Assembly: GCF_900170035.1 (NCBI RefSeq)
Contig: NZ_LT828540.1
Span: 791,717-829,346 of the forward strand
Direction of reading: 5' to 3'
DNA from: Desulfamplus magnetovallimortis
Lineage (GTDB): Bacteria; Desulfobacterota; Desulfobacteria; Desulfobacterales; Desulfobacteraceae
DNA: 37,630 nt
A program made the position numbers and the translations under genes. The notes beneath the pieces were generated by a model. The model saw only the letters and a program-made list of their open reading frames with translations. It ran no database searches and was not told the origin of the DNA. How positions within the stretch are numbered: the stretch's first letter is position 1; each line of letters opens with the position of its first letter. Positions 5,007 through 23,137 of this stretch are shown here, one piece after another.

Positions 5007-6881
5007 TTATCTTTTTTCCGTATTATGCAACCTGTAATAAAATCCCTTTTCAGACATAAGGGTTTCATGATTTCCCCTCTCAATCACCCTCCCATCTTTA
5101 AGTACAATAATTTTATCCGCTGTCATGGCTGACCGCAATCGGTGTGCAATGGTAATTGAAGTGCGATTTTCCTTAAGCTTTGCCGTTGCAATACGGATTT
5201 TTTCCTCGGATTCTGTATCAACGTAAGAGGTTGCTTCATCAAATATTATCAAATCCGGCTCATGTGCAAATGCCCTTGCAATGGAGATAAGCTGGCGCTC
5301 TCCGCTTGAAAGGGAACTTCCGGCCTGGGAGATCAAAGTGTCGGCACCACGTGGCAAATGCGAAACAACAGAAGCTGCATAGGAGAGATCAAGAATATTT
5401 CTGAACTCTTCATCTGTTAAATCCACATCAGGGGGCACAATATTCTGCCTTACCGTACCGGAAAAAAGATATGGATCCTGGGTGACAAGGGCAACACGAG
5501 CTCTGATGGATTTTGTTGAGTAGGCATCTGCATTTTTTCCGTTTACAAGAATCTCCCCTCCCCCGGGCAGATAGAATCTTACAACAAGATTGATAAGCGA
5601 TGTTTTTCCAGAGCCTGTGGGACCGAGTATGGCAAGGGACTCTCCTTTTCTGACTGTAAACGAGACATCCTCAATAACCTTGTTTTCCTCACCTGACTCA
5701 TATTGAAAAGAGACATTTTTGAATGAAAGCTCCTCAATGGTGTCAAGAGTCTCCTGCCCGCCATGCTTATCAGTTTCTGTATCAAGAACCTGGACAATTC
5801 TTTCCCCTGAAGCAAGTGCATTCTGTAGAATATTATGTTTTTCCGATAGATCCCGCACAGGCCGGAAGAACATCTTTGTATAGGATATAAATGCCACAAG
5901 TGTTCCAAGGGAAAGGGATTCGGCAACCACCCTGCCCCCACCGTAAAAGATAATCATGGCAAGGGTTATGGAGCTTAAAAGATCCACAATTGGCATAAAA
6001 AGGGCCATAATCCTTATTTGACGCATTCCGGCAATAAAATTTTCATGATTGAGCTCCCTGAAATCATCCATCATCCTTTTCTGATGTGTAAAGAGCTGGA
6101 TTACCTTCATGCCGCCTATGGATTCTGAAAACATGGAGTTTATCTCTGCAATGTTGACCCTCAATTGCCGGTAAACTCCACGGGAGAGACGGGAAAAAAG
6201 CAAAGTGGAGATAACAATAAAAGGAAGAATGAAACCAAGTGTCAAAGAGAGCTTGAAATCCATAAAAAGAAGAATAACAAAAATTCCAATGAGCATGAAG
6301 GCATCCTTCATGACAAAGGTGATAATAGATGTGAACATCTCCTGCATATTCTGGACATCATTGGTGACTCTTGTAGAAACTCTGCCCACAGGATTTTTTG
6401 AAAAATATGAAAGAGGCAGTTTCTGGATATGGGAATATATCTGCATTCTCAGATCATGCATCATTCTCTGTCCTGCATACTCCATTACAATGATCTGAAA
6501 AAAGTTAAGAGCAAATCTTGCAACTGCAAGAAGAAAAAGCACACCTCCTGCAATGGCAGCCTTGAAGAGATATTCGTTGCGAACATTTATCTGCGATGGA
6601 TTAGATAATTCTATTACGGGATTAGACAACTCTATTACGGGATTAGACAACTCTATTACGGGATTAGACAACTCCATTCCAGGAACTATATAGCTGTCAA
6701 TAGCTGTTTTGGTAACGTAAGGGACGGTCACCTCTGTAAGGGAGAGTATAACCATAAGAAAAATTGAAAGTGTAACCATCCGGATATTTTTCCTGATCAA
6801 GGGAAAAAATCTTCCCAGAAGGCTCAAATCTCTCTGGTTGCCAGGCTCTGATTCCCGGGTTCCTCCAAGTCCGCCTCTCAT
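5007..6881 (-). CDS. ABC exporter half-transporter, MdlB-like (canonical-site) subunit
   Basis: This 624-residue half-transporter has an N-terminal six-helix ABC type-I exporter domain (about 30-345) and a C-terminal ATPase domain. Motifs are Walker A GPTGSGKT (420-427), Q-loop Gln468, signature LSSGE (524-528), Walker B LIIFDE with catalytic Glu549, and H-loop His580. The signature differs from LSGGQ while the catalytic Glu is intact, as in the MdlB/TM288 partner of heterodimeric exporters. It starts inside the stop codon of the upstream MdlA-like gene (TAATG). An ELSNPVI heptapeptide is repeated four times at residues 70-95, in the first external loop. The pair probably exports lipids or hydrophobic compounds; LPS genes lie upstream. 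The substrate is unknown. Confidence 0.87.
   Translation of the reverse strand: MRGGLGGTRESEPGNQRDLSLLGRFFPLIRKNIRMVTLSIFLMVILSLTEVTVPYVTKTAIDSYIVPGMELSNPVIELSNPVIELSNPVIELSNPSQINVRNEYLFKAAIAGGVLFLLAVARFALNFFQIIVMEYAGQRMMHDLRMQIYSHIQKLPLSYFSKNPVGRVSTRVTNDVQNMQEMFTSIITFVMKDAFMLIGIFVILLFMDFKLSLTLGFILPFIVISTLLFSRLSRGVYRQLRVNIAEINSMFSESIGGMKVIQLFTHQKRMMDDFRELNHENFIAGMRQIRIMALFMPIVDLLSSITLAMIIFYGGGRVVAESLSLGTLVAFISYTKMFFRPVRDLSEKHNILQNALASGERIVQVLDTETDKHGGQETLDTIEELSFKNVSFQYESGEENKVIEDVSFTVRKGESLAILGPTGSGKTSLINLVVRFYLPGGGEILVNGKNADAYSTKSIRARVALVTQDPYLFSGTVRQNIVPPDVDLTDEEFRNILDLSYAASVVSHLPRGADTLISQAGSSLSSGERQLISIARAFAHEPDLIIFDEATSYVDTESEEKIRIATAKLKENRTSITIAHRLRSAMTADKIIVLKDGRVIERGNHETLMSEKGFYYRLHNTEKR
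6601..6684. repeat. 21-bp in-frame tandem repeat in ABC exporter gene
   Basis: Four adjacent 21-bp units, nearly identical over TTAGACAACTCTATTACGGG, encode (minus strand) four copies of ELSNPVI in the loop after the first transmembrane helix. Unit length is a multiple of three, so the copy number can change without breaking the frame. The two outer copies carry the substitutions and the two central copies are identical, which suggests recent expansion. Confidence 0.9.
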
Positions 6882-8953
6882 TATTCACTCTCCTGCATGT
6901 GCCAGGCTCCAGCATAGTAACCACCCTCTTCAATAAGGGAGTGATGGGTTCCCTGTTCCGTTATTTTACCTTCATTAAGCACCATAATATGATTTGCATT
7001 TTTGAAAATTGAGAACCTGTGGGAGATAATGATCATGGTTTTCTGACCGGCAAATGATTCTATAATATTTATTATGCGTGATGCTGTCTGCATGTCCACC
7101 TGGCTTACAGGATCATCCATAATCATAATGGGAGCAGATTTTAAAAAAGCCCTTGCAAGGGCAATACGCTGCCTCTGTCCACCCGAGAGCATTACCCCCT
7201 TTTCCCCGATAATGGTCTCAATTCCCATGGGAAAATCAGCAATGGTCTCTGTCAACTGTGCCATCTCAATGGCCTCTGCTATGTCAGAATCATCTGCCTC
7301 AGGATTGCCGAATAGCAGATTGGCATGTATGGTACCGGAAAAAAGAAATGGCTCCTGTGGCATGAAAGAGATATTTTTTCTGAGTGTTTCAAGTGGAATA
7401 TGTCCGATATTGACACCGTCAATTGTAATAGTGCCCTTTTGAGGGTCGTAAATTCTTGGGATAAGGGAGGCAAGTGTACTTTTACCACTTCCCGGAGGTC
7501 CTGCAATACCGAGCATCTCTCCTCTGTTCAGCCTGAAACTTATGCCGGAAAGAACATTGGGAGATAAAAGTTCTTTAGATGATAAAAGTTTTTTTTGCGA
7601 AATATTGGATGAATCTATACCCGAACCTTTTTTTAACGATGAATCTTTAAATGATTCAGAAGAGTCATAGGAAAAGAAGAGATCACGAAATTCAACATCT
7701 CCATGTATTGAAAAATCACTTTCCAAGAGCTTTGAAGCGGCTGTTTCAGGATCTTTAATTAATAGCTTTGATGAGGCTACTTCAGCATCTGTAATTAATA
7801 GCTTTGATGAGGCTGCTTCAGCATCTTTAATTAATAGCTTTGATGAGGCTGCTTCAGTATCTTTAATTAATAGCTTTGATGAGGCTACTTCAGCATCTGT
7901 AATTATCAGATCCGATGCTTCTTGAACTACAGTGGAATCTTGTGCTTGTGTGTTCAGAAAATCATCAGTTACCGATGTTTCTGAAACAGATTCTGAAGGA
8001 ACGGCAAGAATGTCGTTGATACGGTCAATGGAGGCTTTGCCCCTCTGAATAAGGTTGGTAACCCAGCCGATTGCCATAACAGGCCATGTCAAAAGTCCAA
8101 GATAGCTTATAAATGCAACAAAATCCCCTGGAGATATCTGATTCAGAATCACTTTTCTACCCCCTGCACCAAGGATAATGGCAAGGCTGACATTGGTCAG
8201 AAAAATTACCATGGGGAAAATTAGGCCTCTGAGCCTGACAAGTTCCATATTTTTTTTAACATAAATTTCAGACTCATTTTTCATGGCCTCTGCTTCAATA
8301 TTTTCACGGTTAAAAGCCATGATGACCTTTATCCCTGCAAATCTTTCCCTTGTTGACTCCATGAGATCCGAAAAAGATGCCTGAACATCCCTGTATGCAT
8401 TGAAAAGCTTTTTGCTGAGTATCTTTGTTGAAAGTGCAATAAAGGGCATGGGAAGCAGAGCCATTACAGTAAGCTCAAGATTTATGTAGGACATGAAAAA
8501 AACGGCTGCAATACCAAGTACAACAGCATCTGTCAGCCCGACAATTCCCATGCTGAGTGCCATCCTGATATTGGTCATATCATTGGTGGCATGGGCCATG
8601 AGATCACCGGCGGTATGTTTGTTGAAAAAAGTGGCAGGAAGTGTCTGAATATGATTGAAAAGTGAACCGCGAATCCCCTCTTCAACCCTTCTGGCAGAAC
8701 CCATGATCAAAACACGCCAGAAGAATCTGAAAATTCCGATCATAATAGATGATAAAAAAATCAGAAAAGCATATTTTAAAAGCTGTGAACCAGCAACAGC
8801 ACCGACAATATCTTCTGCTGCGGTTATGCTGTCAATTGCCCACTTAATTATCCTGGGAATAAAAAGTTGCAGGAGATCCACAACAAGAAGGGATAAAAAA
8901 CCTGCAATAATGTGGAATCTGCGTTCAATCAGGTAGGGTGTTAAAAGCTCCAT
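6881..8953 (-). CDS. ABC exporter half-transporter, MdlA-like (degenerate-site) subunit
   Basis: Start choice: an upstream ATG at 9067 would overlap smpB by 101 nt, whereas ATG at 8953 lies 13 nt after the smpB stop and begins at the first family-like residues (MELLTPYLIERR). This gives 690 residues. A six-helix exporter domain is followed by an ATPase domain with Walker A GPPGSGKS (485-492), LSGGQ (589-593), Walker B IMIMDD and H-loop His645. Asp614 replaces the catalytic Glu, as in the MdlA/TM287 subunits, while the signature is canonical. It therefore complements the downstream partner. Family members are near 590 residues. The excess is a linker with five 12-residue repeats (about 353-411) and a serine/lysine-rich insert of about 30 residues early in the ATPase domain. 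Confidence 0.87.
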   Translation of the reverse strand: MELLTPYLIERRFHIIAGFLSLLVVDLLQLFIPRIIKWAIDSITAAEDIVGAVAGSQLLKYAFLIFLSSIMIGIFRFFWRVLIMGSARRVEEGIRGSLFNHIQTLPATFFNKHTAGDLMAHATNDMTNIRMALSMGIVGLTDAVVLGIAAVFFMSYINLELTVMALLPMPFIALSTKILSKKLFNAYRDVQASFSDLMESTRERFAGIKVIMAFNRENIEAEAMKNESEIYVKKNMELVRLRGLIFPMVIFLTNVSLAIILGAGGRKVILNQISPGDFVAFISYLGLLTWPVMAIGWVTNLIQRGKASIDRINDILAVPSESVSETSVTDDFLNTQAQDSTVVQEASDLIITDAEVASSKLLIKDTEAASSKLLIKDAEAASSKLLITDAEVASSKLLIKDPETAASKLLESDFSIHGDVEFRDLFFSYDSSESFKDSSLKKGSGIDSSNISQKKLLSSKELLSPNVLSGISFRLNRGEMLGIAGPPGSGKSTLASLIPRIYDPQKGTITIDGVNIGHIPLETLRKNISFMPQEPFLFSGTIHANLLFGNPEADDSDIAEAIEMAQLTETIADFPMGIETIIGEKGVMLSGGQRQRIALARAFLKSAPIMIMDDPVSQVDMQTASRIINIIESFAGQKTMIIISHRFSIFKNANHIMVLNEGKITEQGTHHSLIEEGGYYAGAWHMQESE
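7718..7897. repeat. 36-bp in-frame tandem repeat in MdlA-like gene
   Basis: Five 36-bp units encode DAEVASSKLLIK-type dodecapeptides (minus strand) between the membrane and ATPase domains. The first and fourth units share GCATCTGTAATTAATAGC-type variants, while the second and third differ from them at the same positions. This pattern suggests unequal crossing-over or slippage of blocks rather than simple ancient duplication. Confidence 0.9.
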
Positions 8954-8966
8954 CGACTTTAGAAAT

Positions 8967-9428
8967 TCAGGAGTATTTTTTTCTCTCTCTGTCAAGTTCT
9001 CGGTTAACTTCCCGGGTCTTGATGCTCTCCCTTTTGTCATATATCTTCTTACCCTTTGCAAGACCAATCTGAACCTTTATCTTGCCGTTCTTAAAATAGA
9101 CCTTTAAAGGTACAATCGTAAAACCTCTCTCTGCCACTTTTCCGGTGAGTTTTTTAATCTCACGACTGTGAAGCAGAAGCTTCCTTGATCTCAGTGGCTC
9201 GTGGTTATCATAGTAAGCATATTTATAGGGTGTTATATGCATCTGCTTCAGAAAGACTTCTCCATTTTTGATATCTGCATATGCATCCTTTAGGTTCACT
9301 CTTCCTTCTCTTATGGATTTTACCTCTGTGCCCACAAGCACAATACCAGCTTCAACCTCATCGGAGATATGGTAATCATGACGTGCTTTTTTATTGTTTG
9401 CTATTATTTTAATATGGTCTGATTGCAT
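8967..9428 (-). CDS. smpB: SsrA-binding protein SmpB
   Basis: The 153-residue protein matches SmpB along its length. It has an N-terminal [16 protein letters not shown], the core [19 protein letters not shown] and [12 protein letters not shown], and a basic C-terminal tail [20 protein letters not shown], which folds into a helix in the mRNA channel of the ribosome. SmpB delivers tmRNA (ssrA) to stalled ribosomes for trans-translation. A GAAGGTG ribosome site precedes the ATG. The next gene begins 13 nt after its stop codon, so it is likely co-transcribed with the ABC exporter. I looked for ssrA in the 338-nt space upstream and did not find it. Identification is firm. Confidence 0.96.
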
Positions 9429-9766
9429 TTTTTTTACACCTTCTTGATCACACTGTCATGCCCTGACGGGCACAATGAAGGATGCACATTGCATCACAAT
9501 CGAATAGATAAAAATATCGATAAAAACAGATAGTTATGGAAACTTTATAATAAAACACCATGATTACAAGTGCATCACAACTATGCATGAAAGTTTTTAT
9601 ATATCAGTAGGTTATGGAGACTTTCTAACAAAAAAAAAGAATTGAGTGTAGCCTTTTTGAACTATTCTCCCCCTCTCCATTCATGGAGAGGGGGCTGGGG
9701 GGGTGAGGTTTCATGGCAAAAAATTTACTCCGGGTATTCAAAAAAAGGGTACACTCAAAAAAAATG
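9429..9766. other. 338-nt gene-free region between ptsI and smpB
   Basis: No convincing ORF or tmRNA lies here. The half next to smpB is AT-rich and holds short imperfect repeats: ATAGTTATGGAAACTTT and TAGGTTATGGAGACTTT, spaced about 80 nt apart. The half next to ptsI holds the nested palindromic element listed separately. Confidence 0.6.
9642..9758. repeat. Nested palindromic element downstream of ptsI
   Basis: An inner perfect inverted repeat, CCCCCTCTCCAT (9669-9680) and ATGGAGAGGGGG (9683-9694), is enclosed by outer arms that are also inverted repeats: TTGAGTGTAGCCTTTTTGAA (9642-9661) and its imperfect complement at 9737-9758, which begins TTCAAAAAAAGGG and ends TACACTCAA. The nested arms resemble a small miniature-inverted-repeat or REP-type element. 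Because it follows ptsI by 8 nt, the GC-rich hairpin could also act as a transcription terminator or mRNA 3' stabiliser for ptsHI. Confidence 0.7.
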
Positions 9767-11521
9767 TCAGTCAGAAAGAATATTTCCATAGGTTTCTTTA
9801 ACAAAAGCCTCAATATCAGAGGCTTTTCCCATTTTAATCACTTTTTCTACAAATGCACGGGTATCAACAGCATTAAGGCGTCTGACCATCTGATTTATCA
9901 ATGGTATGGACATGCTGTTCATGGAAAGTTCTCTCAGGCCAAGGCCCATTAGGATGGGAAGATTTAAGGGATCCCCTGCCATCTCTCCACACATGGTTAT
10001 CTCAATGTTTTTTTTGTTTGCAGCATCAACAACCATCTTTACCATTCTTATCAAAGCAGGATTCATGGTGTGGTAAAGATGGGCAACCTGCCTGTTCCTG
10101 CGATCAATTGCCATGGAGTACTGGATAAGATCATTTGTGCCGATACTGAAAAAATCAACATGCTCTGCAAGATCTTCTGCAATAATAACGGCTGAAGGTA
10201 TCTCTATCATGATGCCAAGGGGAATATCCTGATTGAAAACCTTCTGCTCCTTTTTAAGCTCCTCAACTGCTTTCCCAATAATCTCTTTTACCTTTATAAT
10301 CTCATCAACACAGGATATCATTGGTATAAGAAGACGGGTATTTCCAAATGCCGCAGCCCTTAAAATTGCCTTGATCTGGGTAATGAATATTTCTGGGCGT
10401 TTCAGACAAAAGCGTACGGCCCTTAATCCAAGTGCTGGATTTTCCTCTTCCACACCCTTCATGTACGGAAGAACCTTATCTCCATTTATGTCAAGAGTAC
10501 GAAAAGTGACAGGCTTTGGTGTCAAAAGTTCAACAACCTCTTTATACTTTTCAAATAACTCCTCTTCTGATGGAAATCGTTTAAGATCAATATAAAGGAA
10601 CTCTGTACGAAAAAGACCTACACCCTTAGCAGCATTATCCCTTACAGAGACCACCTCTTCCACAAGCTCAATATTTGCCATCAGTCGCATTTTAACCCCG
10701 TCAAGGGTTACAGCCGGAAGATGGCTGTCTCTTGCAAGGCTTGCCTGCTGATGTTCATAATTTGCTCTTCTGGCTTCATAGCTGAAAAGGGTATCTTCCT
10801 CCGGATTGATAATAAGTACACCGGAGTTTCCATCAACTATAAGAATATCGTCATTCTCAACACAATGGGTGACATTACCAAGGCCCATTACAGCAGGAAT
10901 GGCAAGGGATTTGGCAATGATTCCTGTATGTGAATCCTTACCGCCTCTGTCTGTAACAAAGCCTTTTATCAACTCAAGCTGAATCTGGCTTGTATCAGCA
11001 GGCGAGAGGTCATGTGCCACAAGAATTACACGTTTGTTGATATCGGAAATCCTGATATCCTGGGCACCGACAAGATGACGCATTACCTGTTCCGAGACCT
11101 GGGCAATATCTGTAACCCTTGATTTCAGATAGGGGTCATTAACCTTCATGAACATGCGCCGGATTTGCCTTGAGACTTTTTTAAGTGCCCACTCTGCATT
11201 GATTCTGTCTGTCTTTATTGTTTCAATGGTTTTGCCATAAAGCATCTTGTCTTTAAAGAGTACAAGGTGGGTCTCAAGGATATCCATCTGTTCTCTCAAG
11301 TCGTTGTGCAATGAGTCAATTATTGCCGCATGTTCGTCAGTTGCGCGCTTTACAGCATTTTTAAAGCGGTTGATTTCAGCCGGAACCCCCTCTTCGGATA
11401 TGGGATACCGTTTGATCAGATCAACACCTTCCCGATCAACAAGATATGCCTTGCCAATGCAGATCCCGGGAGCTCCTGAGATCCCTTTAAGAACAATTTG
11501 ATTTTTTTCAGGTTCAGCCAT
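9767..11521 (-). CDS. ptsI: Phosphoenolpyruvate-protein phosphotransferase (PTS enzyme I)
   Basis: The start is placed at 11521 (MAEPEKNQIVLKGISGAPG). It overlaps the ptsH stop by 8 nt and matches the usual enzyme I N-terminus; a longer frame to 11602 would run deep into ptsH. The 584-residue protein carries the swivelling-domain motif GGKDSHTGIIAKSLAIPAVMG with phospho-acceptor His198. The TIM-barrel PEP site includes GLRAVRFCLKRPEIF, FSIGTNDLIQYSMAIDR and the active-site Cys in ITMCGEMAGDP. It transfers phosphate from PEP to HPr. No sugar-specific EII gene is in the window, so the pair may serve EIIs elsewhere or regulation. Upstream neighbours are LPS genes and downstream is smpB. Confidence 0.95.
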   Translation of the reverse strand: MAEPEKNQIVLKGISGAPGICIGKAYLVDREGVDLIKRYPISEEGVPAEINRFKNAVKRATDEHAAIIDSLHNDLREQMDILETHLVLFKDKMLYGKTIETIKTDRINAEWALKKVSRQIRRMFMKVNDPYLKSRVTDIAQVSEQVMRHLVGAQDIRISDINKRVILVAHDLSPADTSQIQLELIKGFVTDRGGKDSHTGIIAKSLAIPAVMGLGNVTHCVENDDILIVDGNSGVLIINPEEDTLFSYEARRANYEHQQASLARDSHLPAVTLDGVKMRLMANIELVEEVVSVRDNAAKGVGLFRTEFLYIDLKRFPSEEELFEKYKEVVELLTPKPVTFRTLDINGDKVLPYMKGVEEENPALGLRAVRFCLKRPEIFITQIKAILRAAAFGNTRLLIPMISCVDEIIKVKEIIGKAVEELKKEQKVFNQDIPLGIMIEIPSAVIIAEDLAEHVDFFSIGTNDLIQYSMAIDRRNRQVAHLYHTMNPALIRMVKMVVDAANKKNIEITMCGEMAGDPLNLPILMGLGLRELSMNSMSIPLINQMVRRLNAVDTRAFVEKVIKMGKASDIEAFVKETYGNILSD

Positions 11522-11825
11522 CGGCATTTTCTCCAAATCCGGATTCAAAAAATTCCACAAGTTCATCAAGAACAGAAACATCTTTTTCCGATTCAATCTC
11601 AACTGTCATCCTGCACCCTTTTTCGGCATTAAGGGTTAAAATATCAATCACGCTTGAGGCATCAGCCCTGTGATTTTTATAGACAAGCCAGACCGCATCT
11701 TCAGCATTTCTGACTATTCTGGCGATCATTGCAGCCGGCCTTGCATGCAATCCTAGTTCATTTTCAATGAGCACTGTTTTACGGGTATTCAATAGCGTTT
11801 TCAATCCTGTTTCCGCATCCTTCAT
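11514..11825 (-). CDS. ptsH: Phosphocarrier protein HPr
   Basis: This 103-residue HPr-fold protein has the active-site motif GLHARPAA with His27. It also keeps a serine (Ser58, in ADASSVIDILTLNAEKG) exactly 31 residues further on, the spacing of the regulatory Ser46 in classical HPr. It could therefore be phosphorylated both by enzyme I on His and by an HPr kinase on Ser, although no hprK is nearby. The N-terminus is about 12 residues longer than in classical HPr. The stop codon overlaps the ptsI start, giving a coupled ptsHI pair. No obvious ribosome site precedes the ATG, so a slightly later start is possible. Confidence 0.93.
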   Translation of the reverse strand: MKDAETGLKTLLNTRKTVLIENELGLHARPAAMIARIVRNAEDAVWLVYKNHRADASSVIDILTLNAEKGCRMTVEIESEKDVSVLDELVEFFESGFGENADG

Positions 11826-11890
11826 ATCGGGTTAAGAAGATAGCTACATTATCTTTTCATGTGTAAAATGTCAATAAATCATAAGGATTA

Positions 11891-12799: not shown

Positions 12800-12821
12800 A
12801 GGAGCCTTTTTTTCATTCTGA

Positions 12822-12885
12822 TTTACCGTGGGAATAGAAATCTTATTTCCATAATCGGTGGCGACCGGACTTCGGCTATGAATGG
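12822..12885. repeat. Diverged TTTACCGTG element in the ligase/glycosyltransferase junction
   Basis: TTTACCGTGGGAATAG starts at 12822 and similarity to the GGGGGTGGC subtype at 17689 continues to about 12885 (TTTCCATAATCGGTGGCG and GCTATGAATGGG). It occupies most of the 104 nt between the ligase stop and the preferred glycosyltransferase start. The long start at 12907 would translate through it. Confidence 0.6.
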
Positions 12886-12903
12886 GTAGCGTGGAAAAAC
12901 CCC

Positions 12904-14172: not shown

Positions 14173-14347
14173 AATTCAGATTCCAAAAGTTCTGATCTGT
14201 TCACACCCGGCAAACTGCTTGTGATCAAGTACAGGGATGCTTTTGCAATAACACCTTTGCAATACTTAGGATCACACACAAAGCATATGCAAACAAATAT
14301 AAAAAAAAATTTGCATACCAGAACAGCTCTTGATTTTCTGTTATCAG

Positions 14348-15370
14348 TCAAGTTTCAGTCATCTCCTTTACCACATCAAAAACTTCCCTGACCGTCAACT
14401 CATTCATGCAGCGCCAGTGGGAACATGGCTGCCAGGCATAGCATGGAGAACACGGCAGTTTTTTCTGGATCACCCTGTGTATGGAACCGTAAGGCCCTGT
14501 CCTTACAGGATTGGCAGGACCAAAAACTGCAACCACCGGAACCTCAAGGGCTGCCGCAAGATGCATAGGCCCTGTGTCATTGGTAATAAAAAATCTGGCA
14601 CCCTTAATAATAGGCATCAATCCCTTTAATGTTGTTTTTCCTGCAATTGACAAAGCTTTTCCTTGTGAAAATTTTACAACCCTTTCAGCAATGGCAGCAT
14701 CGGCACCACTGCTTATTACAACCGAAGGCAATGGCAGCATGGAAGCCAGCTCGCCATATTTTTCAGCCGGCCACTGGTTGGCAGGTTTTCCAGCAGAAGG
14801 AGAGATAACCACATAATTTGGAGGCAGGATATTACATATATCAGAATGGTTGTCAAACGGAGCAAAAGGATAGTTTACACTACTTGTGTCACACCCAATA
14901 AAACCGGCAAGTTTAAGATAGCGGTCAATGGCATGGTTATCCATTCCACCTTTTATTTTATGTGTATAAAAAAAAGGGCTTCCCTCATCTGACTCTTCAA
15001 AACCAATTTTCATATAAGCTTTAGATGCAAGTGTTATAAGTCCACTTCTAAGAATACCTGAAAGATCAAAGGCAATATCGTACTTTTCCTTTCCCAGTCC
15101 TTTGACAAGCCCGAATATCTCGTTCAGAGTGGATTTCAGATAACCAATTTTTTTCCACTGATCTTTTTTTATAACCCAAAGTTTGTCTATCATGGGATGC
15201 CCCTCCAGAAAGGTGTGCAGGCCATGGGCTACAACCCAGTCAATTCTGGCGTTGGGGAAAGTGCTTTTCACTGCATTCAGAAATGGAAGTGAATGAATAA
15301 TGTCCCCAAAGGCACTGGGTTTGATAATAAGAATTTTCTTTATCCTGGCCGGAATTACAACAGGACTCAT
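14348..15370 (-). CDS. Family 9 glycosyltransferase, heptosyltransferase I-like
   Basis: The ATG at 15370 is chosen over the one at 15400 because AAGGAG sits 7-8 nt before it. The resulting 340-residue protein starts MSPVVIPARIKKILIIKPSA and has the two Rossmann halves of GT-B family 9. The N-terminal half has FGDIIHSLPFLNAVK. The C-terminal half has VISPSAGKPANQWPAEKYGE, FFITNDTGPMHLAAALEVP and VFGPANPVRTGPYG. WaaC-like enzymes add the first ADP-heptose to Kdo2-lipid A. The C-terminus holds a cysteine cluster (PCSPCYAWQPCSHWRC) also seen in other WaaC/WaaF relatives. It pairs with waaF about 140 nt upstream. The position on the core (HepI versus a later heptose) is not certain. Confidence 0.85.
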   Translation of the reverse strand: MSPVVIPARIKKILIIKPSAFGDIIHSLPFLNAVKSTFPNARIDWVVAHGLHTFLEGHPMIDKLWVIKKDQWKKIGYLKSTLNEIFGLVKGLGKEKYDIAFDLSGILRSGLITLASKAYMKIGFEESDEGSPFFYTHKIKGGMDNHAIDRYLKLAGFIGCDTSSVNYPFAPFDNHSDICNILPPNYVVISPSAGKPANQWPAEKYGELASMLPLPSVVISSGADAAIAERVVKFSQGKALSIAGKTTLKGLMPIIKGARFFITNDTGPMHLAAALEVPVVAVFGPANPVRTGPYGSIHRVIQKKLPCSPCYAWQPCSHWRCMNELTVREVFDVVKEMTET

Positions 15371-15507
15371 TGGGTTCTCCTTAAAAAATCCATACAGCAC
15401 ATCAATAACGGAATTAATCAGTTAGCTTAAGCGCCCTTAAGTTAAAATTTTCCATATTTTTGACTTAAGTTATTGACAAGACTCTTGACATTGACTTGAT
15501 GAAACGC

Positions 15508-16566
15508 TCACTGTTCAGCCATTTTTGCCATGGCAGCATCCATAACCATATCAACTGATATTTTATCCATGCATGCATGGTCAACAGGACAGTGGGGTTT
15601 AAGGCAGGGGCTGCATGGAACCTGAACACGCAGCATCCGGCTGTTGTAACTTGCAGGGGAGGTTGCCACAGGATCTGTTGAACCGATTATGGCAATCTGC
15701 GGTGTGTGAAGTGCTGCCGCAACATGCATTAATCCAGAATCATTGGTAATAAAAAGAGAACATTTTTCTATTAATGCAAATGCATCTCTTAAACTGGTGT
15801 GTCCTGCAAGGTTTATACAGACATTTCCGGAACATGAATTAATAAAATCTCCAAGAGCTTCATCACCCGGGCCGCCAAATAACAAAATTTTGACATTGAA
15901 ACAGTCAGACAGTTTTCTTGCAAGTTCCGCATATCTTTGGGGAAACCATCGTTTGGCTGTACCACCTGTTGCGCCAGGATTTAATCCTATAACAGGTTGT
16001 TCTGCTCTGCCTGTCCCTGCATAATCTGCAATACCATTATCTTCAAGAAATCTTTTTGCCTTTGCCCTTTCATTGTCAGTAACAAAAAGTTCCTGGTACC
16101 CGCCATTGTCAGCAATGGATGCACCTTTTAAAATTCCCCTGTAGTAATCAATCAGATGACCTTTCTTCAGCTTTTTGTCCATTTTGATGGAAGGGTTCAA
16201 AAGCAGAGTTCTGCCGTCTGTGTTATATCCTATACGTACTGGAATGCCGGCCAGAAAAGTTATCAAAGCTGCTTCAAATGCATTCTGCATAAGTATTGCA
16301 ATATCAAACCTGTATTTACGCAGATCCCGAGCAAGACAAATTGTTCCCCAGCCTTTTTTATGGCGTCCATCATTTTCATAAACAATGATTTCATCAACAT
16401 GGGGATTATGCTCAAAGACAGGAATAACCCACGGTTTGGCAAGCAGGCTGATATGGGCAGATGGGTAATGTTTTCTTATGGCTCTTATCACAGGGGTTGT
16501 CATAATGGCATCCCCTACCCAGTTTGCAGCACGGATGAGGATTTTTGAAGGGTTGTTATTGTTCAC
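15508..16566 (-). CDS. waaF: ADP-heptose:LPS heptosyltransferase II (WaaF-like)
   Basis: This 352-residue family 9 glycosyltransferase opens KILIRAANWVGDAIMTTPVI, the WaaF hallmark in which NWVGD binds near the acceptor. The C-terminal half has GLNPGATGGTAKRWFPQRYA and LFITNDSGLMHVAAALHTP, the ADP-heptose site. It ends with the PCSPCLKPHCPVDHACM cysteine cluster. The role is addition of the second heptose of the LPS inner core at the cytoplasmic face. The start codon is GTG with no strong ribosome site. It is preceded by a tandem-repeat tract that reaches into the end of the upstream acyltransferase gene. Length is normal, and unlike several neighbours it has no low-complexity insert. Confidence 0.9.
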   Translation of the reverse strand: MNNNNPSKILIRAANWVGDAIMTTPVIRAIRKHYPSAHISLLAKPWVIPVFEHNPHVDEIIVYENDGRHKKGWGTICLARDLRKYRFDIAILMQNAFEAALITFLAGIPVRIGYNTDGRTLLLNPSIKMDKKLKKGHLIDYYRGILKGASIADNGGYQELFVTDNERAKAKRFLEDNGIADYAGTGRAEQPVIGLNPGATGGTAKRWFPQRYAELARKLSDCFNVKILLFGGPGDEALGDFINSCSGNVCINLAGHTSLRDAFALIEKCSLFITNDSGLMHVAAALHTPQIAIIGSTDPVATSPASYNSRMLRVQVPCSPCLKPHCPVDHACMDKISVDMVMDAAMAKMAEQ

Positions 16567-16607
16567 TATTTCAGTTCTTTCAGGAAGCAGTAATTGTCAT
16601 GTCAGGT

Positions 16608-16778
16608 AACATCATCCAGCTTTTAAGGAAACATCATCAGGTTTTTAAGGCAACAGCATCAGGCTTTTAGGACAACAGCATCAGGCTTTTAGGACAACAG
16701 CATCAGGCTTTTTAGGCAACAGCATCAGGTTTTTAGACAACAGCATCAGGTTTTTAGACAACAGCATCAGGTTTTTGA
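16608..16778. repeat. 21-23-bp tandem repeat between waaF and the LpxL-type gene
   Basis: Eight contiguous units of AACAGCATCAGGCTTTTAGGAC type, varying from 21 to 23 bp, fill the junction. The distal units AACAGCATCAGGTTTTTAGAC extend into the 3' end of the acyltransferase gene, where they encode its last residues (KPDAVV) and its stop codon. There are no spacers, so this is not a CRISPR array. Unit length varies by single bases in the T/A run, a slippage signature. Confidence 0.92.
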
Positions 16779-17665
16779 GATAATAAAGAGTAATTTTTTG
16801 TTTTCCACCGGTTATGAACCCAAAACCACTGCTCCGGATATTGCCTTACCATAGATTCAATGGATGATACATAGTTCTGGGTGTTGATTTCGATATCCTT
16901 TATTCTGTCACCTGTCAACACCAGGGGAATTTCAGGCATAAACCTTATTATGTGGCGTTTTCCATCACGGACAATACAAGTTGGCACAACTGATGCACGG
17001 GTTCTTAAGACAAGTTTTGCAAATCCGCTGTTGGTACATGCAGGTCTGCCAAAAAAATCCACAAACACCCCTTTGTACCAGTCAACATTCTGATCAAGAA
17101 GCGTTCCAACAATACCGCCGGATGCAAGAATTTCATCAACCTTACTGCTTGCCCCCCTCAAAGGAATCATGCAGGTTCCATGTTTTTGCCGCATGGCAAG
17201 CATTAACTTTTCAAGGGGTGGAAAATCAAGTTTTCTGTAAATTGCATATGGTGAGTATCCTGTTATTGCTATGCCTGAAACAAGAAGTTCCCAGTTACCA
17301 AGATGACATGAAAGCGACAGAACTCCTTTGCCCCTGGAGCATGCCGTTTTGATATGTTCAAGTCCTTCAATGGACAAAATCCTTGACACGTCACTTTTTG
17401 TATATCTGTATGACCAGCCAATTTCAAAAAGCATAAAGGCTGTATTATTAAAAATCTTTTTAGCCACTGCATGCAGTTCAGGTTCAGATAACTCTTTTCC
17501 AAAAGCGTGCCTGAGATTATCAAGGGCAATATTTCTGTGCCTTGTATCAATATCAAACCATAGAAGAGCTAAAATATCAGCTATAAAACGTGCAGAACGC
17601 CGTGGTAACAAGCTAATCAGAAGCATTATCAGACAAAGAATTTTATATATGATCAGGTTTTTCAT
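16754..17665 (-). CDS. Lipid A acyltransferase (LpxL/HtrB family)
   Basis: The 303-residue protein has an N-terminal membrane helix and the lipid A late-acyltransferase motifs. These are the HX4E catalytic box at 121-126 (HLGNWE), a GIVGTLLDQN segment, an acceptor region near PACTNSGFAKLVLRT, and the C-terminal FWVHNRWKTK hallmark. LpxL-type enzymes transfer a secondary acyl chain from acyl-ACP to Kdo2-lipid IVA at the inner membrane. The gene lies between lpxK and waaF, where such an enzyme is expected. The last six codons and the stop are formed by a tandem-repeat unit, so the C-terminus was probably altered after the repeat arose. Which acyl position it modifies (LpxL or LpxM type) is not clear. 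Confidence 0.88.
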   Translation of the reverse strand: MKNLIIYKILCLIMLLISLLPRRSARFIADILALLWFDIDTRHRNIALDNLRHAFGKELSEPELHAVAKKIFNNTAFMLFEIGWSYRYTKSDVSRILSIEGLEHIKTACSRGKGVLSLSCHLGNWELLVSGIAITGYSPYAIYRKLDFPPLEKLMLAMRQKHGTCMIPLRGASSKVDEILASGGIVGTLLDQNVDWYKGVFVDFFGRPACTNSGFAKLVLRTRASVVPTCIVRDGKRHIIRFMPEIPLVLTGDRIKDIEINTQNYVSSIESMVRQYPEQWFWVHNRWKTKNYSLLSQKPDAVV

Positions 17666-17688
17666 TAAAGGTACTCTTATTTTTATAT

Positions 17689-17885
17689 TTTACCGTGGAA
17701 ATGGATACAATTTTCTATATTCGGGGGTGGCTGGATGGCAGCCATGCCCGTTTACCGTGAAAATGACTATCATTTTTATATTTGGGGTGATTAATACGTA
17801 ATCAATCATGCCTGTTTACCGTGGAAATGACTACTATTTTTATACTTAGAAATGATTAATACATAATCAATCATACCTGTTTACT
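17689..17885. repeat. Three tandem copies of the TTTACCGTG dispersed element
   Basis: Copies begin with TTTACCGTG at 17689, 17751 and 17815 and run 62-64 bp each, ending in ATGCCCG, ATGCCTG or a diverged ATACCTG. The second and third are close relatives of each other; the first belongs to a more diverged subtype with a GGGGGTGGCTGGATGGC core. They fill the lpxK/acyltransferase junction, and the last copy supplies the lpxK stop codon region. Related copies occur near 12.8, 22.0-22.2 and 23.1 kb. Confidence 0.88.
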
Positions 17886-19334
17886 GCAATTGTTGACAGC
17901 GTTTAAAATAATATTATTAAAAGTATCTTTTTCTGCCGAATCAACAAATTCAATTCTGACACCCAATACAGCAATATCAAGAGGCCACTTTGTACAATAG
18001 TTCAATCGGGCGTAATCCTTTTCCGTTGTAATGAGCAAATCCGCACCACATGTATAACATAGTTCATTGATCTGGCAAATATCCCCGCTTTTATACATGT
18101 GATGGTCGTTAAATTCAAGATGTTCCAGGACATATATCCCCAAATCCGTTACTGTCTGCCTGAAAAAACGGTTATCCGCAATACCTGAAAATAAAAGTGC
18201 CCTTCTGCCAGTCAGATTCTCAATTGTTGTTGGTGGTTGTGGTAGAGAAAAATTTTTATCATCATGGAAAATTTCTTTATTGATAAAACAGTAAAGTGAA
18301 GGTCGATGAGTGGTCATGAAACAGGGTAGGTCATTAATATGGGGTAGGCCATTAATATGGGTTAGCCCCTTAATATTAGGAAGATTGCTTTTAAGAGAAA
18401 GTGATGTTTTTTGGCTTGATGCTGGTGTTGAACAGGGTGCTGAAGGCTCGCCATGTAGTGATGTAATATCACGGCATCGTGTAAAAACAACAATATCTGC
18501 CCTTGAAGCAGCATCAGGTTTTTCCCTCAATCTTCCTACAGGAAGAAGACGACCGTTGCCCAACGGATGGGTATAGTCCATCAAAAGAATATCCAGGTCT
18601 CTTTTCAAGCGGATGTGCTGAAAACCGTCATCAAGAATCATAATACCTTTTGATAGTGCATCAGATGGAGATTGGGGTTCAGATGATGAGTTCAAGCCAG
18701 ATGGAGGTTGCGAGTCAGATGATGCGTGCAAGCCAAATGGAGATTGCGAGTCCGATGATGCGTACAATCCAAATGGAGGTTGCGAGTCAGATGAAAAAAG
18801 CATCTCCATTGCCTTTATTGCACCTTTAAATCGATTTTTTCCGACAACAACCGGAAATGAACGCCTTGATGCCATCATGAAAGGCTCATCACCAACTTCA
18901 TCAGGAGAAAAAAATACATTTTTACCATCCCCTGCTACAACATTGGAGTCTGTTTTCTCAATGGAACCGCCATAGCCACGGCTCAACACTACTGGTTTAA
19001 AGCCCTTTTCTTTAAGCATCTCGGCTACGTAAAGGGTCATTGGAGTCTTTCCGCTTCCGCCTGCAACAATATTTCCTATGGAGATGACAAAAAAAGGGAC
19101 ATTTTTGGCCTTAATAATATTCTTTTTGTAAAGCCAAACACGAACAGATGTAATCAATGCGTAAATTTTAGAAATAAAAACAAGTAGTGATCGGAATGAA
19201 AAAAATTCGGGTTTATAATAATGTTCAATTGATATCTCTGTTATTCTTTTCTCTAATATCTCTGAAATAGAGGATTTTTTTTTATCTAATGTCTTTGTAA
19301 TAGAGGATATTTTTTTCTTAACCAAAAGCTTCAT
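17871..19334 (-). CDS. lpxK: Tetraacyldisaccharide 4'-kinase LpxK with repeat inserts
   Basis: The start at 19334 is chosen because TAGGAAG (containing the waaA stop) precedes it by a few nt; an ATG at 19463 would overlap waaA. The 487-residue protein phosphorylates lipid A disaccharide at the 4' position. Visible motifs are a membrane-associated N-terminus, the P-loop GNIVAGGSGKTP, VVLSRGYGG and the catalytic DDGFQH. The C-terminal ITTEKDYARL is also family-typical. LpxK is usually about 320-350 residues. The excess lies in two inserts: four SSDSQPPFGLYA-type dodecapeptides just before DDGFQH (181-229), and a serine-rich stretch ending in LPHIND-type hexapeptide repeats. Both flank conserved parts without removing motifs, so activity is plausible. 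Confidence 0.9.
   Translation of the reverse strand: MKLLVKKKISSITKTLDKKKSSISEILEKRITEISIEHYYKPEFFSFRSLLVFISKIYALITSVRVWLYKKNIIKAKNVPFFVISIGNIVAGGSGKTPMTLYVAEMLKEKGFKPVVLSRGYGGSIEKTDSNVVAGDGKNVFFSPDEVGDEPFMMASRRSFPVVVGKNRFKGAIKAMEMLFSSDSQPPFGLYASSDSQSPFGLHASSDSQPPSGLNSSSEPQSPSDALSKGIMILDDGFQHIRLKRDLDILLMDYTHPLGNGRLLPVGRLREKPDAASRADIVVFTRCRDITSLHGEPSAPCSTPASSQKTSLSLKSNLPNIKGLTHINGLPHINDLPCFMTTHRPSLYCFINKEIFHDDKNFSLPQPPTTIENLTGRRALLFSGIADNRFFRQTVTDLGIYVLEHLEFNDHHMYKSGDICQINELCYTCGADLLITTEKDYARLNYCTKWPLDIAVLGVRIEFVDSAEKDTFNNIILNAVNNCSKQV
18326..18382. repeat. 18-bp in-frame repeat in lpxK
   Basis: About three units of GTAGGCCATTAATATGGG type encode consecutive hexapeptides of LPNIKG, LTHING and LPHIND type on the minus strand. 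They belong to the second low-complexity insert of LpxK. Units have diverged by a few bases each. Confidence 0.75.
18648..18794. repeat. 36-bp in-frame tandem repeat in lpxK
   Basis: Four 36-bp units encode SSDSQPPFGLYA-like dodecapeptides on the minus strand, directly before the catalytic DDGFQH motif. The last unit is most diverged. The 36-bp period is the same as that of the repeat in the MdlA-like gene, although the sequences are unrelated. Confidence 0.9.
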
Positions 19335-19344
19335 TTTCTTCTTC

Positions 19345-20145
19345 CTACTTTCTGGAAATATGATGCCCGATTTCAGATACAATTTTATCAACAGCTCCAC
19401 CAAATGCCCCAAAAAGTTCCCTTCCTCTCTTTCCTGCATTTTCGGAAAAATCAGTATCTTCAAGAAGCCTCTTCACAACTATATAGAGTTCTTCGCCATC
19501 TTTCACCTTAAAAGCTGCACCAGCAGCAACAAGTGCTTCAGAAAGTTCAACAAAATCAGTCATATGGTGCCCAAAAATAACAGGTTTGGAGAAAATTGCA
19601 GGCTCAAGGGGATTGTGGCCTCCAAAGGGCAAAAGAGAGCCTCCGACAAAAGCAACATCACAAACATCATAAAGAGGCGCTAAAACTCCCATCCTTTCCA
19701 AAATGATAACATCGGGAAAATCAGTTGAATTATCTGAACAGTCAAAATTACCATTTAAATTATTTGAAACAGAAAAATGCTTTACAGTATATGTAAAGAA
19801 TTGAACGGAACAACCAGGCAATTCATTGGTAAAGAGAGAGATAAATTTCTCTTTTACTTCAGATGCTCTTTCAACATTTCTTGGGGCAATAATAAGGCGA
19901 ATATCCGGAAAATTCTGCCTGAGTTTTATAAAAACATCTGCAATCACAGACTCTTCACCAGGGTGTGTGCTGCCTGCAAGCAGCAAAGGGGGTGAAATAT
20001 CTCTTCTGCACCTGAAAAGATTGTAATATTCAGGTTCAAGAGATGGAACAGTTTGATCAAATTTAATATTGCCTGTTACTGTAACTTTATCTGAAGGAAC
20101 ACCAAGTTCAATAAATCTTCTTCTGTCTTCCTCTGTCTGGGTCAT
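19345..20145 (-). pseudogene. waaA: 3-deoxy-D-manno-octulosonate transferase (WaaA), C-terminal part in its own frame
   Basis: From the first Met of this frame, 266 residues correspond to the C-terminal GT-B half of WaaA/KdtA. It begins MTQTEEDRRRFIELGVPSDKVTVTGN, continues with LLLAGSTHPGEE, and includes the donor-site segment FVGGSLLPFGGHNPLEPA. WaaA transfers Kdo from CMP-Kdo to lipid IVA at the inner membrane and is normally essential for LPS. Upstream codons in the same frame (KIPVFLVNARLSLSSLKGYR) continue the protein back to an A9 tract at 20252-20260, where the frame is lost. A low-complexity insert of about 20 residues (SNNLNGNFDCSDNSTDF) sits in the middle. The next gene, lpxK, starts 11 nt after the stop. 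Confidence 0.85.
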
Positions 20146-20320
20146 TATCTTTGTAAAAACAGAAAAAAGCGGAGCAAAAAGCCACTTGAAAGCCCTATAG
20201 CCTTTTAATGAAGATAAAGATAGGCGGGCATTAACAAGAAAAACAGGAATCTTTTTTTTTCAAGGTGCCACAGAAATTCAGGCCAGAGATCACTTTCTGC
20301 AATGATTACAAGCTCCGGCT
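20146..20320 (-). pseudogene. waaA: WaaA middle segment, spanning two homopolymer frameshifts
   Basis: Translation of this stretch recovers WaaA sequence only by changing frame twice. After a run of ten T (20348-20357 on the plus strand as A), the expected protein continues as SVASVCKRIEPELVIIAESD, then LWPEFLWHLEKK. After a run of nine A (T on the plus strand, 20252-20260) it continues IPVFLVNARLSLSSLKGYR. Each tract is one base short, or two too long, for the conserved frame. Residues recovered on both sides of each tract are the highly conserved acceptor-side motif around the Glu-x-x-Leu-Trp-Pro segment. This argues for sequencing error, a recent mutation or slippage decoding rather than old decay. 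Confidence 0.85.
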
Positions 20321-20902
20321 CTATCCTTTTGCAGACAGAAGCAACTGAAAAAAAAAATCATAAGGAAAATATCCAATTTCATGTATATGTTCTGATGAAC
20401 AAGGAATTTCTTCTAATAAAGAATCTTTATTGGATGGTGTAAATTCTTTGTTACTACATGATAAAGAACTCTTGTTATTGGATGCTACAGGTTCTCTTTT
20501 AATGCATGATATAGATGAATGGTGGATTGATGGGGATCTATTCTCCCGCTTTGTGAAATATTGCCTTGCAACTTCAAAACCGCCTTGTGTTGATACAGTG
20601 ACTATGATTTCAAAGCCTTTGGAAATGTAATTTTTTTCAAGTAATCTGACCAGTGGAATGATGGATTTTGCCTCACCCACGGACAAGGCATGAACCCATA
20701 TGCGACGCATTCCCTCTTTTTTTTTGGAAATCAGACTGGAAAGTCCAAGGCGATGACGCATTGTGGCTCTTCTCTTTCCGGAAAAAAGCCAAAACATAGG
20801 AAAAAACGGTAACAAAATCACAAAAAATATAAGTGTCAGGGTGTTATAGATGGTTCTGATAAAGATTTGCATGATGAATTTCAGTGGGTTATCACTGCTC
20901 AC
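20321..20902 (-). pseudogene. waaA: WaaA N-terminal part, frame ends at a T10 tract
   Basis: This frame encodes the N-terminal membrane anchor (IYNTLTLIFFVILLPFF) and acceptor-binding half of WaaA, with RRIWVHALSVGEAKSIIPLV and VTVSTQGGFEVARQYF. GTG at 20902 overlaps the lptG stop; ATG at 20872 (MQIFIRTIYNTL) matches the usual family start and is equally possible. After YFPYDFFF the frame runs off into QLLLSAKG and a stop because of the homopolymer. It carries an insert of about 50 residues made of two imperfect 16-residue repeats (SISCIKREPVASNNKS and SLSCSNKEFTPSNKDS), not seen in WaaA proteins I know. Joined across both tracts, the full protein would have about 510 residues versus about 425 in E. 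coli. Confidence 0.85.
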
Positions 20903-21974
20903 TGCTGATGATATAAATCATGGCAAGCAGCATAAAAATTAAATTTGTAATCCAGGCACTTACAGCCGGCGGAAGCATCCTTCCATATCCAAGGGATGTA
21001 AAGAAGCCATAAATAAACCAGTAAAAAAAAGATGCAGCAATACCAATTACAATGCCAACCGGCAAATTATCTTTCACAATTCGCCTCATTCCTGCACCAG
21101 CACCTATCAGAGCCATTATCAGGCAGATAAAGGGAAATGCAGTTTTACCATAAAGATCAACCTTATAGGTTGTGGCATCATAACCCTCTTTCTGTATTTT
21201 GCGAATATAGGAAAGAAGTTCTGTAAAGCTCATCTCATCTGACTTTTTTACAACTCCCTGCAAGTCGTCTGGCTTGAACTCAATGGGAATCTCTTTTTTG
21301 TCATATTTCACAATTGAAGATGAGGAACTATCTTCAAATCTCTGTTCAAGCACACTGTCAAAAAGCCATGTTTGTTTTACACTGTCAAACTGAGCAGTTC
21401 TGGCATCAACTCTTCTAATTATACTGAAGTCCCTGTCAAGCCAGGTAATGGTAATACCTGCAAGTGTTTTGTCCTTTGGATTAAAATATCTGAAATAATA
21501 AATGGTTCCATCACCTTTAAGCCATATTTTCTCCTTTACAGCATGAATATTTCTGGTCTTTTTTATTACACCATATTTGATATCATTTGCTTTTGACATG
21601 GTAACAGGAACAACTGTCTCTCCCATAAAAATCATCATGAAAGAGAGCAGAAGCCCCCATGCAATTGCAGGTCTTAAAAGATAATAGACACTTATCCCCC
21701 CGGCTCTCATGGCCATCAACTCATTGTTACGATTCATAAGTCCAAAGACCGTCACAACAGCAAGCACAATTCCGGCAGGTGTAAGCTGAACAAACATAAA
21801 CGGTGTTTTAAGAAGCACATATCCAAAGGCATCTATGAATGAAATGCCTGCTTTCACAAACCTGTCCATGTTTGTAAGGTAATCAACAGATATAAAAATT
21901 GCCATGACAATGATCTGTATGATCAGGAAAAATTTGATAAACTCTTTTGCCCAGTACTGTGTTAAAATTGCCAT
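20892..21974 (-). CDS. lptG: LPS export ABC transporter permease LptG
   Basis: Starting at MAILTQYWAKEFIKFF (21974) gives 360 residues, the usual LptG length; the longer frame to 22052 is translated from a dispersed repeat. The YjgP/YjgQ (LptF/LptG) fold is clear. Three N-terminal helices include LLKTPFMFVQLTPAGIVLAV and GLMNRNNELMAMRAGGIS, the coupling-helix region. A periplasmic beta-jellyroll follows, and then three C-terminal helices (AFPFICLIMALIGAGAGMRR, PVGIVIGIAASFFYWFIYGF). LptG with LptF and the ATPase LptB extracts LPS from the inner membrane and feeds the LptC-A-D bridge. lptF and lptB are not in the window. It overlaps or abuts waaA downstream and has no strong ribosome site. Confidence 0.9.
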   Translation of the reverse strand: MAILTQYWAKEFIKFFLIIQIIVMAIFISVDYLTNMDRFVKAGISFIDAFGYVLLKTPFMFVQLTPAGIVLAVVTVFGLMNRNNELMAMRAGGISVYYLLRPAIAWGLLLSFMMIFMGETVVPVTMSKANDIKYGVIKKTRNIHAVKEKIWLKGDGTIYYFRYFNPKDKTLAGITITWLDRDFSIIRRVDARTAQFDSVKQTWLFDSVLEQRFEDSSSSSIVKYDKKEIPIEFKPDDLQGVVKKSDEMSFTELLSYIRKIQKEGYDATTYKVDLYGKTAFPFICLIMALIGAGAGMRRIVKDNLPVGIVIGIAASFFYWFIYGFFTSLGYGRMLPPAVSAWITNLIFMLLAMIYIISSEQ

Positions 21975-22034
21975 TGAAAAATTCTTATTTTGTTTGTTTT
22001 TATTAATTTCATTGACTATTCCTTGTACTAAACG

Positions 22035-22159
22035 GGCATGGTTGCCTATCAATCACCCCCAAATATAAAAATAATAGTCATTGTCATGGTAAACCCTCAT
22101 GGCCAAATAAGATTTCGGCCACCCCCGATCATAAAAACAGAATGTGTTTTCACGGTAAA
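22035..22159. repeat. Two tandem copies of the TTTACCGTG element, inverted relative to the 17.7-kb set
   Basis: Read on the minus strand, one copy starts TTTACCGTG at 22159 and the next starts TTTACCATG at about 22095, each about 62 bp and ending near CATGAGGG or CATGCCCG. The first is of the diverged GGGGGTGGC subtype and the second of the GGGTGATT subtype, the same subtype pairing as at 17.7 kb. They fill the junction between the coiled-coil gene and lptG. Confidence 0.85.
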
Positions 22160-22160
22160 G

Positions 22161-23021: not shown

Positions 23022-23137
23022 CTCAATGTCCTCCAAATCTGAAATTAATATACAATCCTGAACTTGGCTAAACGATCATGGCTGGAGTTTAATCGCCTCA
23101 TAATATATAAATTTGTATTTATTTCCATGATAAATGG

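Follow-up and report, generated by a model that had tools for sequence, protein, structure and literature searches.

Repeat-independent tandem duplication filtered by reading frame as the probable source of low-complexity inserts in conserved proteins of Desulfamplus magnetovallimortis

A stretch of 37,630 nucleotides from the 6.68-Mb draft genome of Desulfamplus magnetovallimortis (this genome being G000 and the stretch G000:C1:791717-829346; hereafter the window, at its full length) encodes a cluster of lipopolysaccharide and ABC exporter proteins, several of which carry low-complexity, often repeated segments. The results of this work suggest that these segments probably stem from tandem duplication that acts in this Desulfamplus lineage independently of existing repeats and blind to codons, is followed by expansion, and is filtered by selection. 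Segments of about 10-130 bp would be duplicated in tandem throughout the genome, either at an unusual rate or with unusually good retention, and no pre-existing direct repeats would be needed for the initial event. From two copies on, slipped mispairing or unequal recombination could expand or contract the arrays, the units of which would then diverge. Purifying selection would purge genic arrays that fall out of frame, as well as those breaking folded cores, and the survivors would be in-frame arrays, lying for the most part in loops, in linkers between domains and at termini, and mainly disordered passengers of the proteins that carry them.

Tandem repeats were sought with Tandem Repeats Finder (TRF) in 40 stretches of 20 kb plus the window, i.e., in 838 kb or 12.5% of the genome (the first 200 kb each of contigs C1, C2 and C3, and the first 100 kb each of C4 and C5), and arrays with a period of at least 6 bp were counted at a score of at least 80, with a laxer set at 50 or more. 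At the stricter score this sample holds 139 arrays (16.6 per 100 kb), or 126 (15.0 per 100 kb) once 13 rows belonging to clustered regularly interspaced short palindromic repeats (CRISPR) are removed, and at least one array occurs in every one of the 40 sampled stretches, so that the process which the initial annotation had suspected of being genome-wide does extend past the cluster. One base shuffle of the same 838 kb gave no array at the stricter score and two at the laxer one, against 139 and 196 observed. Elsewhere in the genus the stricter score yields 9 arrays in 200 kb of G007, 5 in 77 kb of G003 (16.9 kb of which are N, making it too poor for gene calling) and 13 in 85 kb of six loci from Desulfamplus metagenome-assembled genomes (MAGs), the last two groups overlapping in one contig (L102 and L017) and sharing one array. 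Outside the genus the total is 10 arrays in about 1,315 kb, Escherichia coli K-12 included: 4 in 200 kb of G024, none in 200 kb of G033, one in 100 kb of each of G017, G023 and G010, 2 in 100 kb of G044, none in 100 kb of E. coli K-12, and one in the 415 kb of 25 other loci matched via a waaF-like gene.

The reading frame seems to decide which arrays persist inside genes. Among the arrays whose sequence is unique within the sample (72 in 838 kb at the stricter score), all 49 that lie in coding DNA have in-frame periods and none is out of frame, whereas 4 of the intergenic ones are in frame and 11 are not (Fisher p=1.8e-9); those that are partly coding comprise 2 with a period divisible by three and 6 without. 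At the laxer score the coding arrays are 67 in and 4 out of frame, and the intergenic ones 13 and 24 (p=5.9e-11). When arrays with matches elsewhere are included, 59 of 59 coding arrays at the stricter score have periods divisible by three, one of them being CRISPR DNA miscalled as a gene. Since intergenic arrays ignore the multiple-of-three rule, and in-frame arrays are at least as dense in coding as in intergenic DNA, this rule comes from selection and the process itself is blind to codons. The claim of the initial annotation that all repeat units are multiples of three thus stands for the coding inserts; a 22-bp and a 64-bp array in the same interval depart from it.

This filter also bears on the alternative that survives best, i.e., that duplication proceeds at a normal rate and that weak selection in a large genome lets rare duplications accumulate unpurged. 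Its appeal is understandable, as the 6.68 Mb of this genome exceed the sizes of nine listed congeners (2.5-4.3 Mb, with a completeness of 52-89% for several), dispersed intergenic repeats are many, the called coding fraction is 0.82 (633 genes in the 838 kb, called by our own script), and in-frame arrays are no rarer inside genes than between them (7.1 vs 2.6 per 100 kb, and 9.8 vs 8.6 at the laxer score). We nevertheless consider it unlikely: genes lack unique arrays that are out of frame (0 of 49 at the stricter score, 4 of 71 at the laxer one), which indicates that selection is not weak overall, microsatellites show no general excess in the same DNA, and two relatives with large genomes, G024 (5.7 Mb) and G017 (6.1 Mb), are array-poor at the stricter score (4 in 200 kb and one in 100 kb). 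We infer a raised duplication rate, and not relaxed selection, as the cause; where each species is represented by a single genome, however, a higher rate cannot be told apart from better retention.

The kind of mutation can be read from the freshest events. The sample contains 14 isolated two-copy exact duplications, ten of them unique, with periods of 12, 24, 15 and 126 bp in coding and of 20, 22, 16, 20, 15 and 18 bp in intergenic DNA; the homology at the junctions of these ten (k=0, 0, 0, 0, 0, 1, 1, 2, 2 and 4) is near what would be expected without any homology requirement. Such chance-level junctions resemble the signature reported for the E. coli topA R168C mutant (PMC6954433), and an altered topoisomerase could produce breaks or nicks that are repaired into repeat-independent duplications. 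For TopA, the topoisomerase looked at here, this seems improbable. Of the 12 positions compared, 11 equal those of E. coli, R168 and the catalytic ones included, so the R168C substitution itself is rejected; position 35 is K and not R, as in other relatives, and no position separates the genus from the rest by a residue fixed on either side, although at one column that is invariant in all the others TopA of D. magnetovallimortis has D in place of E. The units reaching 126 bp speak against this alternative as well, and so does the failure to find Ku in any of the 58 genomes searched (the control set matched in Bacillus subtilis), which also rules against duplication by Ku-dependent end joining. 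A topoisomerase IA-like gene other than topA lies at G000:C15:13482-15276 and was matched in two pieces, one with an internal TGA.

Could the arrays themselves be selected, as variable disordered loops that tune activity or as contingency loci? Adjacent units diverge with a ratio of nonsynonymous to synonymous differences (pN/pS) of 0.63 over 57 arrays, which suggests weak or mild constraint, and the number of units in TopA differs between species: its insert measures 40, 34 and 28 residues in G007, G004 and G005, i.e., 18-bp steps among three sister species, each represented by one strain. We regard this alternative as quite improbable nonetheless, given that units divisible by three presumably cannot switch a gene off by frame, that the sequences of the inserts differ among sister species, and that the host proteins are functionally unrelated. 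The 53 called genes with an array at the stricter score (one, in L069, being CRISPR DNA) were scanned with Pfam in 44 cases, and 39 of these match a family at E <=1e-5; for one of them, the coiled-coil protein at 22161-23036, the match lies under the curated cut-off. Among the hosts are DnaX, YebG, LptA/LptD-N, RapA, RecD, MeaB, a polyA-polymerase/tRNA nucleotidyltransferase, a histidine kinase, a BadF-type ATPase, MTHFR, FeoB, a sigma-54 regulator, AFOR, and TsaD-type, S1 and MiaB-like radical-SAM/TRAM proteins. As judged by eye, their arrays are placed mostly between domain matches or at termini, with the matches of the nucleotidyltransferase, MdlB and LpxK being interrupted, and N, S, E, T and Q are over-represented in the repeats, Y, F and W under-represented.

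Low-complexity acidic inserts of differing sequence were found in TopA of D. magnetovallimortis and of seven genus relatives, with small ones in G003, G009 and G001. The linker of DnaX varies in length among outgroups as well, and no RapA turned up in any of the nine genus relatives at the cut-off applied. A single heptosyltransferase gene of one MAG (L018) carries four arrays. The arrays of TNEELQ units in CheB/CheR-PAS proteins (L076 and L077), together with the coiled coil at 22462-22790, may be old structural repeats, and were kept in the counts.

Slippage of the polymerase, raised by a defect in mismatch repair, is very improbable as the source of these arrays. It would be in keeping with the many units of 10-20 bp, with di- and trinucleotide runs being slightly raised (12 vs 5 and 11 vs 3 expected), and with frame changes of waaA at two 9-base homopolymers. 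However, runs of 1-5-bp units show no general excess in the 838 kb, those of 4-5 bp are not raised, homopolymers of at least nine bases fall below expectation (52 observed vs 75 under a first-order Markov model), and MutS1 and MutL are both present, above cut-off. In addition, mismatch repair is not known to handle loops as large as these units. Flat microsatellites, the presence of both repair proteins and junctions at chance level, taken together, point to tandem duplication and not to a mutator of the microsatellite type. Of the slippage or duplication tendency that had been proposed from the sequence, it is therefore duplication that is retained.

That the arrays descend from a mobile element inserting in frame into genes, as Rickettsia palindromic elements do, is scarcely credible and was rejected for the coding arrays tested, in spite of an insert in MdlA of the G007 clade that resembles a repeat in another protein, because 49 of the 59 coding arrays match nothing else in the 838 kb and the mdlA and lpxK arrays, the two that were searched genome-wide, occur once each in the whole genome of D. 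magnetovallimortis and in none of the 10 other genomes searched. This agrees with the earlier proposal of a process as opposed to one mobile element. Extrapolation from the sample gives about 570 unique arrays genome-wide, old and fresh events being found in one background. As for the G007 clade, its MdlA linker insert (PLPNGEG..., in L124, L125 and L126) resembles a repeat at L090:5436-5493, and a dispersed element may, judging from these sequences, enter genes there.

Several observations weigh against the interpretation by tandem duplication, or reduce its weight. Fifty-one of the 69 intergenic arrays at the stricter score (CRISPR rows included) have at least three other places in the sample; since dispersed intergenic families also make arrays, part of the excess has another source. 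The contrast with other genomes shrinks at the laxer score, where the density is 23.4 per 100 kb here and 17.0 in G044, a relative at the level of the order (8.0 in G010, 7.5 in G024 and 1.0-3.4 in the others outside the genus), and the genus is not uniform, as G007 has 4.5 per 100 kb at the stricter score; draft MAGs, however, may collapse arrays and so lower such counts. Exact tandem duplications (period of at least 12 bp, N masked) number 69 in the sample, and this density of 8.2 per 100 kb is no more than about twice that of G024, G044 and G010 (4.0 each). For the Desulfamplus MAG loci the value is 3.5, for G007 it is 1.5, and everywhere else it lies at 0-1.0. The junction result rests on ten fresh duplications, one of which, an exact duplication of 126 bp inside a sigma-54 response regulator (L073:1349-1600), could be either a very recent event or a misassembly. 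Four out-of-frame unique coding arrays do appear at the laxer score, and TopA is slightly lengthened in the outgroups G011 and G020 too. Finally, the sample consists of contiguous blocks from five contigs besides the window, genes called by our own script may leave some arrays labelled as intergenic within missed genes, and the counts include a few duplicates where stretches end (L074/L075) and a few overlapping arrays (L060).

The proteins of the window illustrate what the duplication process may leave behind. The genes from 5007 to 23036 are all on the minus strand, and we take them, some with Pfam support, to be mdlB, mdlA, ptsI, a waaE-like and a wzy-like gene, two heptosyltransferase-like genes, an lpxL-like gene, lpxK, waaA, lptF and a gene for a coiled-coil protein. 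Five of their products had been said to carry extra segments that their families lack, and alignments with family or order relatives bear this out, with TRF arrays in four of them. The aligned distant homologues do not have the same inserts, and it is at the MdlB loop that the claim of absence has to be qualified.

In LpxK (17871-19334; 487 residues from the ATG at 19334, this start being our choice; Pfam LpxK, E 4.1e-77), the 12- and 6-residue units attributed to it are both recovered, the first as an array of 36 bp x3.6 at residues 181-228 (18651-18794; TRF 18665-18794), shortly before the DDGFQH stretch, and the second as 18-bp units x2.9 (18324-18376, TRF score 78) at the end of another insert, at residues 290-337 (18324-18467). 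A third array found by TRF near the N-terminus, 33 bp x2.3 (19242-19316), comes on top of those named before. In line with the view that inserts avoid catalytic motifs, no column that is invariant, or nearly so, in an alignment of 26 sequences (25 of the 27 relatives found were used) falls within the LpxK inserts. The AlphaFold model has a mean predicted local distance difference test score (pLDDT) of 79.3, and its only segments of at least three residues with pLDDT below 50, 184-217 and 292-314, are both within inserts; the N-terminal array is modelled as a helix, hence not every array is a disordered loop. The fold is retained despite the inserts, as the model matches the crystal structures 4lkv and 4ehx (Foldseek to 4lkv_B, E 2.4e-22). 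At the same loop, different low-complexity inserts occur in sister species (L012 and L017), as they do elsewhere in the protein (MAISSSGMAISSS in L017 and QISSIESRKLSSIGSR in L012), and none of five outgroups has an insert at the main site.

In the MdlB-like half-transporter (5007-6881; Pfam ABC_membrane and ABC_tran), the 7-residue units noticed earlier correspond to an in-frame array of 21 bp x3.9 (6597-6678; TRF 6598-6678) with ELSNPVI units in the membrane domain, in what we take for the loop joining membrane segments 1 and 2. The array is absent from all three alignable genus relatives (G005 and G003 were left out, as the match in both was MdlA), but the order-level relatives G035, G036 and G046 have a longer loop there, of other sequence, a further point that counts against the lineage-specific interpretation. 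The MdlA-like half-transporter (6881-9040; same two Pfam domains) has both of the features ascribed to it: 12-residue units between its membrane and ATPase domains, as an array of 36 bp x4.9 (7724-7906; TRF 7728-7905), and a second, Ser/Lys-rich insert recognized by alignment (7562-7657), where TRF gives no array. At the site of the latter, four of the five aligned genus relatives have other sequence and G009 has none. The linker as a whole is longer in all five than in five outgroups, though by little in G009, while G010 has no sequence there in the alignment; G004, G005 and G007 have an insert in common and G003 a different one, none of which resembles the array of D. magnetovallimortis.

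The WaaE-like glycosyltransferase (11891-12907; Pfam Glycos_transf_2) carries the acid/base-rich insert ascribed to it (12380-12505, by alignment, in which the row of L015 is another protein and was ignored), and within it lies an imperfect array of 18 bp x3.4 (12395-12456, TRF score 73). For WaaA the earlier description holds in part: two degenerate 16-residue units (SSISCIKREPVASNNK and SSLSCSNKEFTPSNKD) can be seen by eye in an insert at 20387-20545, within the first of three frames over which waaA extends, whereas TRF does not report them even at a score of at least 30, and the gene (19348-20917) is not one open frame, its shifts occurring near T9 and A9 runs. Sequencing error, transcriptional slippage or decay are all possible reasons for these shifts.

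Other arrays reported by TRF in the window are of diverse kinds. An array of 22 bp x8 (16604-16776, minus strand), a period not divisible by three, begins in the final codons of the lpxL-like gene and extends beyond its stop codon, a local instance of a process that takes no notice of codons. At 17743-17884 an intergenic array of 64 bp x2.2 is a tandem copy of a dispersed intergenic family with units of 61-65 bp, with at least 55 genomic matches when 40 out of 456 first-look candidates were scored; of eight congeners searched at the same cut-off, it is present in G001, G002, G006 and G008 and was not found in G003, G004, G005 and G007. Searched against plasmids, the 64-bp family had no match. 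The predicted protein at 22161-23036 contains an array of 33 bp x10 (22462-22790, minus strand) of 11-residue, coiled-coil-like units, to which arrays at L060:4031-4627 are similar, and a protein that matches no Pfam family (34214-35371) has 27-bp unit arrays (34498-34744, minus strand). Elsewhere in the sample, a CRISPR array with the repeat TTTCTAAGCTGCCTGTGCGGCAGTTTAC, similar to those of type I-F, occupies L069:7001-13149 on contig C3. Assembly gaps of 100 N interrupt the sample at 22 places (e.g., L048:1379-1478), one of them adjoining an 18-bp duplication, which suggests that gaps in this genome may conceal further arrays.

These arrays offer a natural map of the positions at which conserved enzymes, LpxK, TopA, DnaX and FeoB among them, accept added residues, and a warning to annotators that extra protein length in this genus can be repeat inserts and not new domains. 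No report of the pattern was found among the titles and abstracts listed in literature searches on Desulfamplus, on repeats in Deltaproteobacteria, on bacterial intragenic repeats, on repeats in conserved prokaryotic proteins, on bacterial repeat density, on Plasmodium-type inserts, on gyrase and tandem duplications, and on Rickettsia palindromic elements.

The closest known systems share some of its properties. Like the intragenic tandem repeats known as minisatellites or variable number tandem repeats, the coding arrays consist of in-frame units of 9-126 bp set head to tail and rich in residues that promote disorder. In topA the number of units differs between sister species. Filtering of coding repeats by reading frame is already known (PMC12699852). 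Bacterial examples in a repeat census include adhesins, matrix-binding and PE-PGRS proteins (PMC7230257), in contrast to the housekeeping enzymes in which arrays are common here; this difference depends on definition, since the census defines repeats far more broadly and finds them in more than 30% of bacterial proteins (PMC7230257). Rickettsia palindromic elements, also in-frame peptide inserts in conserved genes, are a mobile family, unlike the mostly unique coding arrays of this genome.

The E. coli topA R168C mutant makes head-to-tail duplications, of 2-19 bp in galK, independently of existing repeats, and the origin of tandem repeats from non-repeated DNA was stated as unknown in 2019 (PMC6954433). 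Short duplications independent of prior repeats are what is seen here too (nine of the ten with k of 0-2 and one with 4), in a natural pattern with longer units and R168 intact, i.e., alike in kind but without that cause. Conserved enzymes of Plasmodium are interrupted by lineage-specific low-complexity loops, and such loops within conserved enzymes are equally found here. P. falciparum combines the highest density of short tandem repeats with an AT-rich genome (PMC12699852), whilst the GC content of D. magnetovallimortis is 0.41 and its 1-5-bp runs are not generally raised. We would tentatively entertain a bolder version of the duplication hypothesis, in which a standing, lineage-wide mutator might make head-to-tail copies of 10-130 bp without microhomology, so that loops and linkers of housekeeping proteins are continuously rewritten. 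Were this true, Desulfamplus would present a bacterial parallel to the low-complexity proteome of Plasmodium, reached by a different mutation process.

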